A stretch of 35,551 nucleotides of DNA from positions 1-35,551 of the IMG/VR virus record IMGVR_UViG_3300023184_000316. One strand, given 5' to 3'. How positions within the stretch are numbered: the stretch's first letter is position 1; the number at the start of each line of letters is the position of its first letter. The position numbers were made by a program, and so were the translations under genes. Positions 4,368 to 26,812 of the stretch are shown piece by piece. The notes beneath the pieces were generated by a model, which saw nothing but the letters and a program-made list of their open reading frames with translations, ran no database searches and was not told the DNA's origin. Source of the DNA: a virus.

Positions 4368-4378
4368 TCGGAGGATTT

Positions 4379-5137
4379 ATGGCAATTAACTTACAGGCAA
4401 TTAGTCGCAACACCACGTTACAACCGCCCCGCATCATGGTCTACGGCCCGCATGGATTGGGCAAGACCACGTTCGGCGCCAGCGCCCCGAACCCCATCTT
4501 CATTCTGACCGAGGATGGGTTGGGGCGCCTTGAAGCGGATCACTTCCCGGTCGCCAAAAGCTACAAGGATGTGCAGGAGGCTTTGGCGTCACTTAAGGGC
4601 GAGCACAACTTCCAGACCGTGGTGATCGACTCTCTCGACTGGCTCGACAACCTGATATGGGAGCAAATCAACGGCCAGTATGAAGCCAAAGACTTGGCCT
4701 ATGGAAAGGGTGCGGTAATCGCTGCGGATCTCTGGCGCAAGGTTTTGGAGGATCTGACCGCCCTGCGTGCTAAAGGCATGGCGTCTATCCTGCTGGCGCA
4801 CTGTGAGATCAAGCGGTTTGACAGCCCGGAGGTTGAGCCATACGAAAGGTATCAACCCAAATTACAGGCGCGTAGCAGTGCGCTTGTTCAAGAATGGTGT
4901 GACATTGTAGGATTTGCCAATTACAAGACAATCGTAAAGTCGTCTGATGTTGGATTCAACAACAAGGTGAGCCGCGGCATCTCGACTGGCGAACGCTTGC
5001 TCTACACCAGCGAGAAACCGGCATACCTTGCTAAGAACCGCTACAGCTTGCCCGAATCACTGCCATTGGACTGGTCAGCACTGGCAGACGCAATGATGAC
5101 CACAACCGAAACACCAACCAAAACCAAAGGAAAATAA
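4379..5137 (+). CDS. Sak4-like RecA-fold ATPase (AAA_24), recombination
   Basis: A 252-residue P-loop ATPase of the phage nucleotide-binding (AAA_24/Sak4) type, a reduced RecA/Rad51-like fold that helps single-strand annealing in phage recombination. Walker A is GPHGLGKT at 23-30 and Walker B TVVIDSLDWL at 80-89. Residues 110-140 carry the conserved core after Walker B (KVLEDLTALRAKG, then ILLAHCEIK). The ATG at 4379 is preceded by GGAGG. It is followed after 2 nt by the DUF669 gene and, further down, by a PD-(D/E)XK exonuclease: the three-part recombination set (annealase, ssDNA-binding partner, exonuclease) known from many phages. Confidence in the family is high; its activity here is inferred. 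Confidence 0.85.
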   Translation: MAINLQAISRNTTLQPPRIMVYGPHGLGKTTFGASAPNPIFILTEDGLGRLEADHFPVAKSYKDVQEALASLKGEHNFQTVVIDSLDWLDNLIWEQINGQYEAKDLAYGKGAVIAADLWRKVLEDLTALRAKGMASILLAHCEIKRFDSPEVEPYERYQPKLQARSSALVQEWCDIVGFANYKTIVKSSDVGFNNKVSRGISTGERLLYTSEKPAYLAKNRYSLPESLPLDWSALADAMMTTTETPTKTKGK

Positions 5138-5139
5138 TC

Positions 5140-5625
5140 ATGGCCGCACTCAATTTCAACGCAGCAGAAGTAGAACCGCAGCAGTCATTCGACGCCTTGC
5201 CTGTGGGGCGTTACGAGGTGATCATCACCGACAGCGAAATGAAAGACACCATAGCTGGAACCGGCCAGTATTTGCAGCTGACTTTTTCCGTTACTAGTGG
5301 CCAGCACGACGGCCGCAAGCTCTGGTCGCGCCTGAATTTGGTCAACCCCAACTCCACGGCAGTCGGCATCGCCGAGCGCGAGCTGTCGGCCATTTGCCAC
5401 TGCGTCGGCATCATCACGCCAGCCGACAGCGAGGAGCTGCACGACCGCCCGCTGATTGTTGACGTAATACAGGAATTGAATCCGAAAAGCGGTCAGATGG
5501 TGAACCGCATTAAAGGTTACAGCCAAGCCAACGGCGCACCGGCGCCGAAAGCCAAACCAGCCGCACCGGCAGGCTTTGCTGCTGGCAAGGTCTCGGCAGC
5601 GGCACCCTGGGCAGCTCGTAAGTAA
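5140..5625 (+). CDS. DUF669 protein, ssDNA-binding partner of Sak4
   Basis: A 161-residue protein matching the DUF669 style: a compact OB-like beta domain (GRYEVIITDSEMKDT, YLQLTFSVTSGQHDGRKLW, then INxVNPNS-like NLVNPNSTA) over residues 20-125, and a flexible Ala/Pro-rich tail (residues 128-161) ending in WAARK. DUF669 proteins are encoded beside Sak4-like ATPases and are thought to bind single-stranded DNA in place of a phage SSB. The start is 2 nt after the Sak4 stop, indicating joint expression. The disordered basic tail could serve for partner recruitment. Confidence 0.8.
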   Translation: MAALNFNAAEVEPQQSFDALPVGRYEVIITDSEMKDTIAGTGQYLQLTFSVTSGQHDGRKLWSRLNLVNPNSTAVGIAERELSAICHCVGIITPADSEELHDRPLIVDVIQELNPKSGQMVNRIKGYSQANGAPAPKAKPAAPAGFAAGKVSAAAPWAARK

Positions 5626-5670
5626 ACTAACCCGCTGGGGCGGCAACGCCCCGGCGTCATCGGAGGATGT

Positions 5671-6816
5671 ATGGATTTATTTGCACAACCTAAAATTATT
5701 GAAGCAGATTCAAAAGAAGTTATTGACCGCGCAAAAAATGTTTTTGAATTACTTAAATTGCTTGAATTTCATGCGCGTGTTCATGCTATCAATCAAATTC
5801 GTTTAGCCTTGCACAAATATTCACCGTTCGCTAATGAGCCGGTTGATTGTGTTCAGTGGATTGCTGCCGACAATGTAACTGCAAACGATTACAACCCAAA
5901 CAGTGTTGCCCCTCCTGAAATGAAATTGTTGGAACACTCAATTACGGAAGATGGTTATACGCAACCTATTGTTGCTTGGAAACAAGAGTCTGTTTTCGAG
6001 GTGGTTGACGGTTTTCACCGGCACCGTGTTGGCCGTGAAAGCGAGATAGTAAACAAGCGTGTTATGGGCTATCTGCCAATCGTTGCGATACAGGCCAGCC
6101 GTCAAGACCGAAATGACCGTATAGCTTCAACTATCCGGCACAATCGCGCACGCGGTAAACACAAAGTAGAAGCAATGTCCGATATTGTTGTTGAGTTGAA
6201 ACGGCGCAACTGGTCGGACGAAAAAATTGGCAAAGAATTGGGAATGGATGCTGACGAAGTGTTAAGGCTCTGTCAGATAACCGGCTTGTCTGAAGTGTTT
6301 GCTAATCAGGATTTTTCAAAGGCATGGGACATTGAAGAACCTGAAATTATCAGCGAGGAAATTTTGTCAGATATTTCAGATGAACAGATTAAAAAATCAA
6401 AACGGGTATTTCACACGTTTGATAAGTGGGAATGCTACCCGTCTGGATTCTACGAAGAAAAGCCAAAAGACTTAACGCAAGAAGAAGGCGAAGAAAAATA
6501 CCGCGTTTTTCTGTCTGACTTGAACGCATTTGAAACCGCATTGAAAGAGGTAACAGGGAAATGGAAAAACTCATGCGAGCATTACTTGACCAACGACCGG
6601 ATGAACCGAATTGCATGGCTAGGGCAGGCATCAGTGGCGCAAGCTCTGGGTATTCCTTCTTGCTGTCGCGGGGGATACAACCGCTTGACCGATTCGGAAA
6701 AGAAAGCAGCGGATTTGTTGGCATTGAAATACCTGAACATTTGGTTAACCGACAGGGGTAATCCGGAATTAACGCTTGATCTTGCCGCGTCTAAAACTGA
6801 AGCGGATTTATATTAA
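5671..6816 (+). CDS. ParB/Srx-domain protein, IbrB/YbdM-like
   Basis: A 381-residue protein with a ParB/sulfiredoxin-type nucleotide-binding domain at about 57-165: the signature VVDGFHRHRVG (111-121) and NRARGKH (158-164). An HTH-like segment follows (WSDEKIGKELGMDADEVLRL, about 196-215), then a long acidic C-terminal region without a clear family. ParB-fold domains bind and hydrolyse CTP or ATP. The next gene, starting at the base after this stop, is a PAPS-reductase-like PP-loop protein; this pairing is that of the enterobacterial IbrB/IbrA and YbdM/YbdN proteins. The ATG has GGAGGATGT upstream. Both genes are clearly more AT-rich than the recombination genes around them, so the pair looks like an inserted cassette. 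Its biochemical role is not established. Confidence 0.8.
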   Translation: MDLFAQPKIIEADSKEVIDRAKNVFELLKLLEFHARVHAINQIRLALHKYSPFANEPVDCVQWIAADNVTANDYNPNSVAPPEMKLLEHSITEDGYTQPIVAWKQESVFEVVDGFHRHRVGRESEIVNKRVMGYLPIVAIQASRQDRNDRIASTIRHNRARGKHKVEAMSDIVVELKRRNWSDEKIGKELGMDADEVLRLCQITGLSEVFANQDFSKAWDIEEPEIISEEILSDISDEQIKKSKRVFHTFDKWECYPSGFYEEKPKDLTQEEGEEKYRVFLSDLNAFETALKEVTGKWKNSCEHYLTNDRMNRIAWLGQASVAQALGIPSCCRGGYNRLTDSEKKAADLLALKYLNIWLTDRGNPELTLDLAASKTEADLY

Positions 6817-8043
6817 ATGGCTAACCTTAAACGTTACCTAGAAACCGATGTATTAACCGCTGCGCGTGAGCGTATTGCGTATACGTTTGATCACTTTGAG
6901 AAAATCTACGTTAGCTTTTCCGCCGGTAAAGATTCAAGCGTGATGCTTCATTTGGTTATGGAAGAAGCTATTAAACGCAATCGCAAGGTTGGTGTATTAC
7001 TGATCGACCTGGAAGCGCAATACAAGCTAACGATTGAACACGCCGAAGTAATGTTTGATCTGTATAAAAACAACATTGAATTGTATTGGGTTTGCCTGCC
7101 AATCAAGTTGCGTAACTCGGTGAGCAATTACGAGCCGGTATGGTGTGCGTGGCAACCGGAGCGAGAAAAGGATTGGGTCAGGCCAATGCCAAAACGGGAA
7201 GGTGTTATATCCGACCACGCACATTTTGATTTTTTTCAACCGTGGATGGAGTTTGAAGAATTTATTATTCTATTCGGGGTGTGGTATGCACAAGGACAAA
7301 ACACCGCGGCATTTATCGGCATCCGTTGTGACGAAAGTTTAAATCGTTTCCGCACGATTGCGGTATGGGATAAAGGGATGCATGGAGGGAAACGCTACAC
7401 GACTAAAGTAGTCGATAACCTTTACAACATCTATCCGATTTATGATTGGCATGTAAACGATATTTGGCGATATCACGCGCACTTTCCTACCAAGCCGCAC
7501 AATGAAGTTTATGACCGTATGCACTTGGCCGGATTATCTCCACCGCAGATGCGACTTTGCCAGCCTTACGGCGACGATCAAAAGCGCGGCCTGTGGTTGT
7601 ATCATCTAATTGAACCCCAAACATGGGGCAAAGTTGTTGCGCGTGTAAACGGTGCGAATAGCGGTTCACTGTATATTGAAGAAACAGGAAATGTCACCGG
7701 CTACAATCGAATCAGCAAACCAGATGGGCATACGTGGAAAAGTTTTGCTAATTTGCTGCTAGCGACTATGCCAGAAGTCACGCGGGAACATTACCTTGCT
7801 CGTTTCAAATCGTGGATGAAGGGCTGGCGGTCACGCGGTTACGCTAACGGAATACCTGACGAAGCTCCAAGAACATTGGAAAAAAAATATTGGGCACCCT
7901 CATGGCGGCGCATATGCAAGGTTTTACTTCGCAACGATTGGTGGTGCAAAGGTTTAGGATTAACTCAACCAAAAAGTGAAGCCTACGGTAAATATTTATT
8001 AATTAAAAAATTAAAAAAAGGAGAAATAATTGAAAATTCCTGA
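6817..8043 (+). CDS. PAPS-reductase-like PP-loop protein, IbrA/YbdN-like
   Basis: A 408-residue adenine-nucleotide alpha-hydrolase family protein. The PP-loop is SFSAGKDSSVM (33-43), where Gly of the usual SGGKDS is replaced by Ala. Residues about 160-265 continue the PAPS-reductase-like core (FIGIRCDESLNRFRT, YPIYDWHVNDIW, then LCQPYGDDQ). The C-terminal 120 residues, with RFKSWMKGWRSRGY, resemble the DUF3440 region of IbrA. It follows the ParB-like gene without a gap, so the two are probably partners. Family members are annotated as sulfurtransferases or PAPS reductases, but redox Cys are not obvious, so nucleotide adenylation or thiolation is as likely as sulfate assimilation. AT-rich, as is the start of the next gene, which it overlaps by 14 nt. 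Confidence 0.82.
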   Translation: MANLKRYLETDVLTAARERIAYTFDHFEKIYVSFSAGKDSSVMLHLVMEEAIKRNRKVGVLLIDLEAQYKLTIEHAEVMFDLYKNNIELYWVCLPIKLRNSVSNYEPVWCAWQPEREKDWVRPMPKREGVISDHAHFDFFQPWMEFEEFIILFGVWYAQGQNTAAFIGIRCDESLNRFRTIAVWDKGMHGGKRYTTKVVDNLYNIYPIYDWHVNDIWRYHAHFPTKPHNEVYDRMHLAGLSPPQMRLCQPYGDDQKRGLWLYHLIEPQTWGKVVARVNGANSGSLYIEETGNVTGYNRISKPDGHTWKSFANLLLATMPEVTREHYLARFKSWMKGWRSRGYANGIPDEAPRTLEKKYWAPSWRRICKVLLRNDWWCKGLGLTQPKSEAYGKYLLIKKLKKGEIIENS

Positions 8044-9154: not shown

Positions 9155-9321
9155 AAAAAGATTTACCGAAGGAGCAGGACAACGACAACTGCCCGTTGTG
9201 CGGCAACGACACGCTCGACATGGGTTACGGCCTAGCCGGTGGCGGCATTGGCGTTTACTATTTTTGCAAAACGGATAAGTGCAACTATTTTCACAAAACG
9301 CCGGACGGAGCCGCAAAATGA
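9151..9321 (+). CDS. Small zinc-ribbon protein
   Basis: A 56-residue protein with CPLCGND near residue 14 and CKTDKC at 39-44: two Cys pairs that form a zinc ribbon, similar in layout to Lar-type or Com-like small phage proteins. It overlaps the exonuclease stop and the following start as ATGA at both ends, with AAAAAGGGAG upstream as ribosome site. The second zinc ribbon follows directly. No function can be assigned beyond metal-dependent binding of protein or nucleic acid. Confidence 0.7.
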   Translation: MKKDLPKEQDNDNCPLCGNDTLDMGYGLAGGGIGVYYFCKTDKCNYFHKTPDGAAK

Positions 9322-9578
9322 GCAGCAACGCATTTAACCAGCTTGACCGCGAATATACCGAGCGCGAGGATTACTTGGCCAGCCGACAAGAGGAACGGCA
9401 GGCAGAAAAACCATCAATCGACCCCTGCCCGTTCTGCGGTCACCTTGACATTGAGGTTGACGAGATCGAGATCGGCATCATTGCGATCTGCTGTCCCGAA
9501 TGCATGGCGATCGGACCGCACCAGGATGGCGCACAGTCTGTTGAGCTCGCCATTGAAAAATGGAACCGCAGAAAATGA
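9318..9578 (+). CDS. Lar-like restriction alleviation zinc-ribbon protein
   Basis: An 86-residue protein that follows the Lar pattern: DPCPFCGHLDIEV, then CCPECMAIGPHQDG, ending in SVELAIEKWNRRK. The PCPFCG opening, the second Cys pair and the final AI-x-x-WN-x-R are the family hallmarks. Rac prophage Lar modulates host type I restriction-modification so that unmodified DNA survives; many phage relatives are untested. The ATG at 9318 overlaps the preceding stop as ATGA, so I prefer it to the longer frame. An early anti-restriction role fits its position. Confidence 0.7.
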   Translation: MSSNAFNQLDREYTEREDYLASRQEERQAEKPSIDPCPFCGHLDIEVDEIEIGIIAICCPECMAIGPHQDGAQSVELAIEKWNRRK

Positions 9579-25571: not shown

Positions 25572-26812
25572 TTATGCTATCAGCACGCCGCAAAATTGCG
25601 GTCCGCTGGAGCAAAGATTACCAGCCCACCCAATCAGCTTAACAATCATTCTGTTACTTTCAGCCTTTCGGCTTACTGACCATCTTTCGATGGCGGGGAA
25701 ACCGCTTCGGATTTCCCTCGCTGGCTTCAATAAAGTTATACCAGTGTTCAGACTATCGCATACACCCTTCGGTGTCCCTCTCACTTAGTCGTTCACGCTG
25801 CTTTCGCTTGCGCCCTGTCGCCCGCTTCCGGGCTTCCAAGTCAATCAGAGAAGGTTTAAAGACGCCATTAATGCAAAGTAGGTTTAGCGTCTTGGTTAAC
25901 GGCTTGCCGTTCGCCGCCGATCGGTACAAAGTTCCTATCTACGTGTGGCCTAAAAAACGCATATTTAGTGTTTAGGAACCACATGTGATTCGCCGTCGCA
26001 GCCGCACCGATACCGCCATCGAGCACAACGTCGGATGCCATGCCCGCGCCGTAGTATTTCAGCGAGGCAAAACCAGCACCAGCCATTGACGAGCCCGAAT
26101 CAGAAATGCGCTGAATGGATTGTAGAGATTGCAGATACAGACGATAGTAGTTATTGTCAGCAACGATCAGATCCGGTTTGTCGGTTCCGCGAATCAGCTG
26201 CACAGCAACCGAATCCATATACTGCTGGATGTTGGATGCCGTAGTAGCCGCGCCGCCGTTCGTCACGCCGGAGTAAGCAACCGACTGCCAGAACGAATAG
26301 CTGGCGCGGTTAATGCCACCATACGTACCGGAGGTCGGAGCATCCGGGACCATCGCTGCAAGCCCGGTGATGTTTTTTCCGCTGTTCCCTGTGCCATCCA
26401 GATAGATGTCGCCGGAAATACGGTTAGCCAGCTGCGCTTCGGCCACGTTCATACGACCGTCGAGCAGGTCGATAATCGCTTCCTTGCCGCTGTTCTGAAT
26501 CATTTCCAGACCGCTGATTGACACCGCCGCAGCATACTGAGTGATACCAAACTGCGCCGCACTGATCGGGCTGTTTTGGCTGACGTTCAGCACTTCATAG
26601 CCACTGTAGCTATTCGTGTTGTTCGTCGTGCTGTCGTTGTACATTACCTCTTGGAGTATGAGATTCCCCCCACTGAAGGTCTTCACATTCCCGCGCTCTT
26701 TCAACCGGCGCAGAAGCGCGTTGTTGTTTGTTACGTTGTCGGCCAGCTCACCGCTACGACTTTGTATGTTGGTCGCAATGATGTCGCTGATCGAGCTGTT
26801 GGCGAATGCCAT
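25572..26812 (-). CDS. Major capsid protein, gene split by a group I intron
   Basis: Coding parts are 25886-26812 (309 codons) and 25572-25646 (25 codons with stop); joined, they encode 333 residues. The product forms the head shell. Exon 1 has the usual helical start (SISDIIATNIQSRSGELAD) and ends in the block FVPIGGERQAVNQDA. In unspliced RNA the frame runs five codons further (KPTLH) and stops. The expected continuation, IVKLIGWAGNLCSSGPQF and so on, is found 239 nt downstream in exon 2. The junction leaves exon 1 complete after GCT and starts exon 2 at ATT, so the frame is kept without extra residues. The identity rests on operon position (portal, scaffold, capsid, decoration) and on the conserved C-terminal block. 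The unspliced message would make a truncated 314-residue protein. Confidence 0.9.
25647..25885 (-). ncRNA. Group I self-splicing intron (239 nt, no ORF)
   Basis: Read on the minus strand, the core can be drawn in full. P1: exon AGACGCU (25892-25886) with guide GGCGUCU (25866-25860), a U.G pair at the splice site. P3: CCUUCUC (25854-25848) with GAGAGGG (25782-25776). P4: CUUG/CAGG (25840-25837, 25817-25814). P5: GCCCG-GAAG-CGGGC. P6: GCGC/GCGU enclosing GC-GAAA-GC. P7: GACUA (25790-25786) with UAGUC (25755-25751), inside a typical AUAGUCUGAAC-like S element. P8: ACACC-GAAG-GGUGU. Then 3' hairpins, including CCAUC-GAAA-GAUGG and AGCC-GAAA-GGCU. The last base is G (25647). The four bases upstream of the guide can pair with the 3' exon AUUG as P10. 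No homing endonuclease is encoded within. Subgroup is not assigned. Confidence 0.9.

Follow-up and report, generated by a model that had tools for sequence, protein, structure and literature searches.

Intron splicing within a phage capsid gene is already known, and the intron described here would be another case of it. In mycobacteriophage LittleE, splicing of the capsid gene has been proven by RT-PCR and N-terminal sequencing, the intervening sequence being, according to its authors, most likely a group I intron (PMC3706429), and the 265 bp intron in the minor tail gene of phages BAKA/Optimus has also been proven by RT-PCR to be spliced (PMC3706429). A group I intron has furthermore been reported for the capsid gene of the lactococcal phage Tuc2009, as cited in PMC3706429, and the “Jug” huge phages carry thousands of small introns, with splicing supported by metatranscriptomes for 37 of 76 (PMC12363816).

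The locus addressed here lies in a 35,551-nt viral sequence (IMG/VR record IMGVR_UViG_3300023184_000316; this whole analyzed stretch is referred to as the window), the capsid gene of which (minus strand, 25572-26812) has a 239-nt ORF-less group I intron inserted at 25885-25647. LittleE and the window share an intervening sequence in the major capsid gene of a tailed phage, an exon 1 ending in U, an intron ending in G, and the existence of intronless relatives, whereas the LittleE insert is ~820 bp long and contains a putative homing endonuclease, and that of the window is 239 nt long, ORF-less, has its core resolved, and is known from sequence alone (PMC3706429). The BAKA/Optimus intron resembles it in being short, devoid of an endonuclease gene, and harbored by a virion structural gene, although the host gene differs (PMC3706429), and that of Tuc2009 in residing within the capsid gene of a tailed phage (PMC3706429). 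Jug introns average ~206 nt, are many per genome, and have their endonucleases mostly as stand-alone genes, the examples given being in terL, nrdD, and DNA polymerase genes as opposed to the capsid gene of the window (PMC12363816). The suggestion of the sequence-only reading that a capsid gene is an unusual site for such an intron thus has to be amended, as capsid splicing is published (PMC3706429), and the capsid gene is the commonest site found in the intron family, albeit in a biased sample. Beyond these reports, the present locus contributes a series of natural alleles in which one site is either occupied or empty, evidence that the intron spreads with no endonuclease inside it, and a family that the Rfam model RF00028 largely fails to see. 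The segment is, in our view, very probably a compact group I intron that self-splices from the capsid mRNA, is horizontally mobile, and is otherwise a tolerated parasite and not a regulator.

The interrupted capsid gene and its uninterrupted relatives

Exon 1 of the major capsid gene (25886-26812, minus strand) consists of 309 codons ending in NQDA and matches the major head protein family phrog_9953 (E 2.4e-95). The capsid reading frame (25868-26812, minus strand) extends beyond it, the unspliced frame reading NQDA KPTLH and then a stop, which gives a 314-residue protein ending in NQDAKPTLH. After base 25647 the capsid frame picks up again as IVKLIGWAGNLCSSGPQFCGVLIA, which, followed by a stop codon, makes up exon 2 (25572-25646, minus strand), colinear with uninterrupted relatives and under purifying selection. 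Joining the exons in silico places NQDA directly before IVKLIGWAGNLCSSGPQFCGVLIA, the predicted ligated RNA junction being AAGACGCU followed by AUUGUUAAG, and the predicted spliced capsid protein having LIGWAGNLCSSGPQF as a C-terminal peptide. It follows from these frames that a full-length capsid protein would require splicing, the unspliced product being without the conserved C-terminal 24 residues. The exon 1 protein can be aligned to the capsid proteins of Myxococcus phages Mx8 and Mx9, Stenotrophomonas phage BUCT555, and Bradyrhizobium phage ppBjS10J-1, all four of which run uninterrupted from NQDA into a GW-GN-type C-terminus.

Scanning IMG/VR with the capsid protein retrieved 597 relatives, the best 80 of which were analyzed. 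The intron is present in seven of these 80, and the other 73 are intronless at the exact junction, having the NQDA codon directly joined to [IV]VKL[IV]G[WF]-[AS]GN; the C-terminal GW/F-AGN segment is kept in all of the intronless relatives compared. Such exact empty sites in 73 of the best 80 relatives fix both of the splice sites, and excision of the intron restores the reading frame as it is found in these relatives. Relatives with a capsid protein ending at the early stop, which had been named in advance as evidence that would speak against an intron, were not seen, as 73 of the best 80 read through the junction.

An allele set combining the IMG/VR capsid relatives, loci found by their intron-core pattern, and cultured relatives comprised 14 distinct alleles with the intron and 71 without it. 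Inserts at the window-type capsid site are 231-240 nt long in the 14 intron-bearing alleles, and exon 2 is open and of constant length in all 14, with 733 synonymous versus 145 non-synonymous codon differences. Searching for the spliced junction yielded 35 stretches, which were taken as intronless alleles; the 25 of these that were compared are no nearer to the window exon 1 than the previously found relatives, so that none resembles a cDNA of the window’s own gene. Other kinds of insert were considered and rejected: an intein because of the stop five codons into the insert, a group II intron because of no group II Rfam match at E ≤ 10, and a frameshift or assembly error because 14 distinct alleles share the insert.

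Elsewhere in the window, adjoining plus-strand genes at 5671-8043, one with a weak ParB N-terminal match and the other with a PAPS reductase and DUF3440 match, recall the IbrB/IbrA arrangement, and a Restriction alleviation protein Lar domain (E 2.8e-10) is encoded on the plus strand at 9279-9578.

Core structure, covariation, and detectability

All elements of the intron (25647-25885) are given here on the minus strand. P1 is formed by AAGACGCU, the 5'-exon strand with U at -1 (25886-25893), and the internal guide sequence GGCGUCUU (25859-25866), which pair over 8 bp with U.G at the splice site. The P1 loop contains an in-frame stop UAA (25868-25870) that precedes the guide sequence, and a P10 strand, UAAU (25867-25870), which can form 4 bp with AUUG at the beginning of exon 2 (25643-25646). 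Further on are P3 (CCUUCUC, 25848-25854, with GAGAGGG, 25776-25782), the P4-P5-P6 domain (CUUG/CAGG, GCCC/GGGC, GCGC/GCGU, and P6a; 25795-25840), P7 (GACUA, 25786-25790, with UAGUC, 25751-25755), the P8 hairpin (ACACC/GGUGU, 25762-25775), P9 with peripheral hairpins (25662-25744), and the conserved 3' end AGUAACAGAAUG (25647-25658), the terminal guanosine of which is base 25647. The placement of a group I intron splitting the capsid gene by the sequence-only reading was, therefore, exact to the base, with its P1, P3, P4-P6, P7, P8, P10, and terminal G all present; it was also correct in describing the intron as ORF-less, there being no endonuclease ORF within the 239 nt. Only three bases (AGU) separate P7 from P3 in the window intron, leaving no P7.1/P7.2, and its P5 hairpin is short, with no P5abc, so the traits of group IA (P7.1/P7.2) and of IC1/IC2 (P5abc) do not apply to it. 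Folding of the window intron as a single sequence gave z -2.3, a measure of little use for a pseudoknotted core.

A search for the intron-core pattern returned 107 stretches in IMG/VR and one locus in GTDB genomes, and 35 complete related introns were aligned, with the structure taken from the window row. Pairing is possible in 89.6% of the alignment cells, versus 74.5% upon shuffling and 39-45% with the partners slid, the slid control somewhat favoring a structure read from one alignment row; the compensatory changes are independent of that. The covariation score is 0.369 versus 0.138 for shuffled alignments (reached by none of 500 shuffles), and 39 pairs have changed on both sides. Covariation is strong in P1, P3, P8, P9, and the variable P7 pair: P3 is paired in every one of the 35 sequences, with double changes at 7/7 pairs; P8 has them at 5/5 pairs; four helices of P9 and the periphery have double changes and are 79-86% paired; and the fifth P7 pair is A-U in 27, G-C in 6, and U-A in 2 sequences. 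The P4-P5-P6 domain is always pairable, P4 and P6 being invariant and hence uninformative as covariation, and AGUAACA near the 3' end is common to all 35 introns, with the G a few bases on. P1 tracks whichever exon hosts the intron, the guide sequence covarying with it across the family, and ends in U.G in 28 of the 35 rows of the alignment; in several of the other seven, P1 is misaligned. The 4-bp P10, initially proposed only as possible, gained family-wide backing as well, as the mean pairing is 3.0 bp versus 1.96 with shuffled exons (0/5000), even if some of the 3' sites were assigned by script and are possibly a few bases off. In-frame stops before the guide sequence occur in 54% of the family introns versus 23% in the other two frames; the test is simple and the sequences are related, and the pattern fits a protection of the core from translation.

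The family covariance model, R1, scores the window intron at 191 bits, the window being a member of its training set. RF00028, on the contrary, matches the window neither at the gathering threshold nor at E ≤ 10, gives no gathering-level match on the family loci, and, among nine of these, has a sole sub-threshold match of 23 bits (in L151). Such a missing match had been set out beforehand as counting against an intron; it is set aside, since in the control T4 nrdB-nrdA-td region RF00028 scores the nrdB intron at 35.7 bits (the cut-off being 50) and does not find the td intron at E ≤ 1, and the silence of a model that misses a proven intron is no refutation of a phage group I intron. The T4 introns are missed by R1 as well, so the link to proven introns consists of shared architecture and short sequence matches. 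One of the latter is provided by the P8-P7 stretch of family member L187, which is shared with sequences from phages of Staphylococcus and Lactococcus, one of these sequences being annotated as Intron_gpI; at ~30 nt, these matches would be support for a tie to annotated introns and not proof of it.

Host genes and wider occurrence of the family

R1 has 145 matches in 97 family loci, with two or more in several contigs. Clustering by flanking exon places 56 of the 79 loci that were classified in major head protein genes (phrog_9953, 283, 1357, 267, and 14242, the families having been checked on representatives only), and most of the others in ribonucleotide reductase and portal genes. Because the loci were collected by means of the window intron’s core and partly, for the window-type capsid loci, via the capsid search, this tally is a biased estimate of target preference. 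The same intron type splits the P22-like coat gene of phage ctn9Y15 (MW202674) and the ribonucleotide reductase gene of Roseobacter phage CRP-118; both introns are ~80% identical to the window intron over the matched stretch, and differ from it in host gene, their records being without intron annotation. In phage ribonucleotide reductase genes, the intron family recurs at one site, after the ...NP of a conserved motif (L003, L089, L104, L110, L156, and others). Searching E. coli genomes for the intron returned no match, and searching plasmids returned a single distant one, at L275:3001-3230 on the 205 kb Rhodanobacter plasmid NZ_CP088981.1 (78% over the matched parts, within an unannotated stretch).

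P22-like coat genes have introns near codons 40, 45, 52, 90, 104, 204, and 363, and several have more than one (L188 and L121, with three model matches each, L171, and L152). Further multi-intron loci are L123, L116, and L142, the last with five model matches within 2.1 kb (4369-6424), while in the phrog_1357-group capsid genes at L187:4527-4949 and L163:3434-3850 two introns flank a micro-exon of ~22 nt (TACCTTACAAAACCAAGACCCT in L163). Family introns also occupy a second site of Mx8-like capsid genes, just 5' of a YSGYETL motif, in L112 and L196, where exon 1 is non-adjacent, the insertion likely being longer and perhaps having its own gene within.

A separate observation concerns an insertion of 32-41 nt after codon 40 of P22-like coat genes (L102:922-961, L145:1132-1169, L152:1161-1198, L274, and ~40 IMG/VR stretches), which sits a few dozen nt upstream of the codon-52 group I intron, contains an early in-frame stop, and varies in length, mostly in other than multiples of three. 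It is present in 27 alleles linked with the codon-52 intron and in 0 of 11 alleles without that intron, the coat-gene alleles carrying it representing few lineages. Its ends can be placed according to the group I rule (a U before the insertion and a G as its last base), exon GUGGU pairs with GCCUC (four pairs and one mismatch), the two strands having jointly become GUGAU/GUCUC in L274, and the sequence 5' of GCCUC pairs with the 3' exon over 4-5 bp in 21/21 (shuffled mean 3.8, 0/2000). The insertion could be a coreless, substrate-only group I intron spliced by the neighboring ribozyme; it could also be a translational bypass element. A broader picture, put forward tentatively and on balance doubtful, is that of a large family of compact group I introns unseen by the Rfam model, with phage major capsid genes as its commonest niche and several sites per gene, which would spread as DNA without an endonuclease of its own, and of which a P22-like coat-gene member would splice the coreless 32-41-nt partner.

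Mobility, competing explanations, and meaning

That the element is mobile was beyond what the sequence-only reading could discern. On the exon 1 tree, the presence of the intron requires nine changes, at least seven of which are forced by supported branches. The window intron is 97.9% identical to that of L009, the exons being 83.0% identical, and 98.3% identical to that of L057, with exons at 81.2%; in L008, the nearest allele to the window by exon (95.1%), the intron is no more similar (97.9%). Vertical descent with constraint would not yield such near-identical introns in diverged exons. The flanks add to this, as the hexamer GACGCT precedes the intron in 14/14 intron-bearing versus 17/71 intronless alleles (Fisher p 7e-8, kinship ignored), T is at -1 in 14/14 versus 18/71, and the last 12 nt of exon 1 are identical in all of the compared intron-bearing pairs, identity being near background beyond ~12 nt upstream. 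The -1 base differs in 9/9 comparisons between intron-bearing and intronless sisters; L057 and L079, for instance, have 12 differences in the 927 nt of exon 1, yet differ at -1, and have further differences within the first 18 nt of exon 2 (positions 9, 10, 15, and 18). This reads as intron gain together with a short adjoining stretch of exon, as in DNA homing, and the sequences show that the intron has spread horizontally among related phages without an internal endonuclease. The patchy distribution could alternatively stem from general phage recombination. No homing endonuclease was recognized when the window ORFs, including part of the small ones, were scanned against Pfam and PHROGs. It is documented that ORF-less introns can be moved by endonucleases acting in trans (PMC3984707).

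Following known group I biochemistry, an external guanosine would attack 3' of the exon 1 U, the freed exon 1 would then attack 3' of the terminal G, and the exons would be ligated into an mRNA for a 333-residue capsid protein, while ribosomes on unspliced RNA would halt five codons into the intron, at UAA 25870-25868, before reaching the guide sequence. The most likely route of spread would be homing or recombination at the level of DNA with co-conversion of a short flank, possibly by means of an endonuclease supplied in trans. Mobility through reverse splicing into capsid mRNA and reverse transcription, which is compatible with splicing, would agree with the lack of an endonuclease among the scanned ORFs and with the shortness of the transferred flank; the -1 base and the clustered exon 2 changes, however, move with the intron, which insertion into a recipient mRNA would not bring about, and we hold this route to be unlikely.

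The remaining explanations concern what the intron does to the capsid. Had it decayed into a non-splicing state, the virion would use a truncated capsid protein ending in NQDAKPTLH, the 314-residue product that unspliced translation does give; this is very improbable, as exon 2 is open and under purifying selection in the 14 intron-bearing alleles, the helices of the core are all intact and covary, and all the intronless relatives retain the C-terminal GW/F-AGN segment. Hardly credible is a capsid made of two polypeptides, exon 2 being translated separately from the intron-terminal AUG (AUG directly followed by AUUGUU): that ATG is in frame with exon 2, and GenBank starts the downstream half of the ctn9Y15 coat gene at it, but family members elsewhere end without ATG and in other phases, the exon 2 product would be merely 25 residues long, and there is no apparent ribosome-binding site upstream. 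The idea that the intron could tune capsid output, raised in the sequence-only reading, found no support, 73 of the best 80 relatives being intronless. An intron kept as a regulator coupling capsid output to translation or growth state might be seen in the excess of in-frame stops before the guide sequence, through which translation and core folding may interact, but those stops equally fit simple protection of folding, and an intron found in just seven of the best 80 relatives, repeatedly gained or lost, resembles a mobile parasite, which renders regulation quite improbable.

The natural collection of alleles at this single site, 14 with the intron and 71 without it, opens the spread of an intron lacking an endonuclease to direct testing. 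As the standard Rfam model misses such introns, metagenome capsid genes are at risk of split or truncated annotation. The genes of the most abundant virion proteins, in turn, emerge as a common home of small self-splicing introns in environmental phages.
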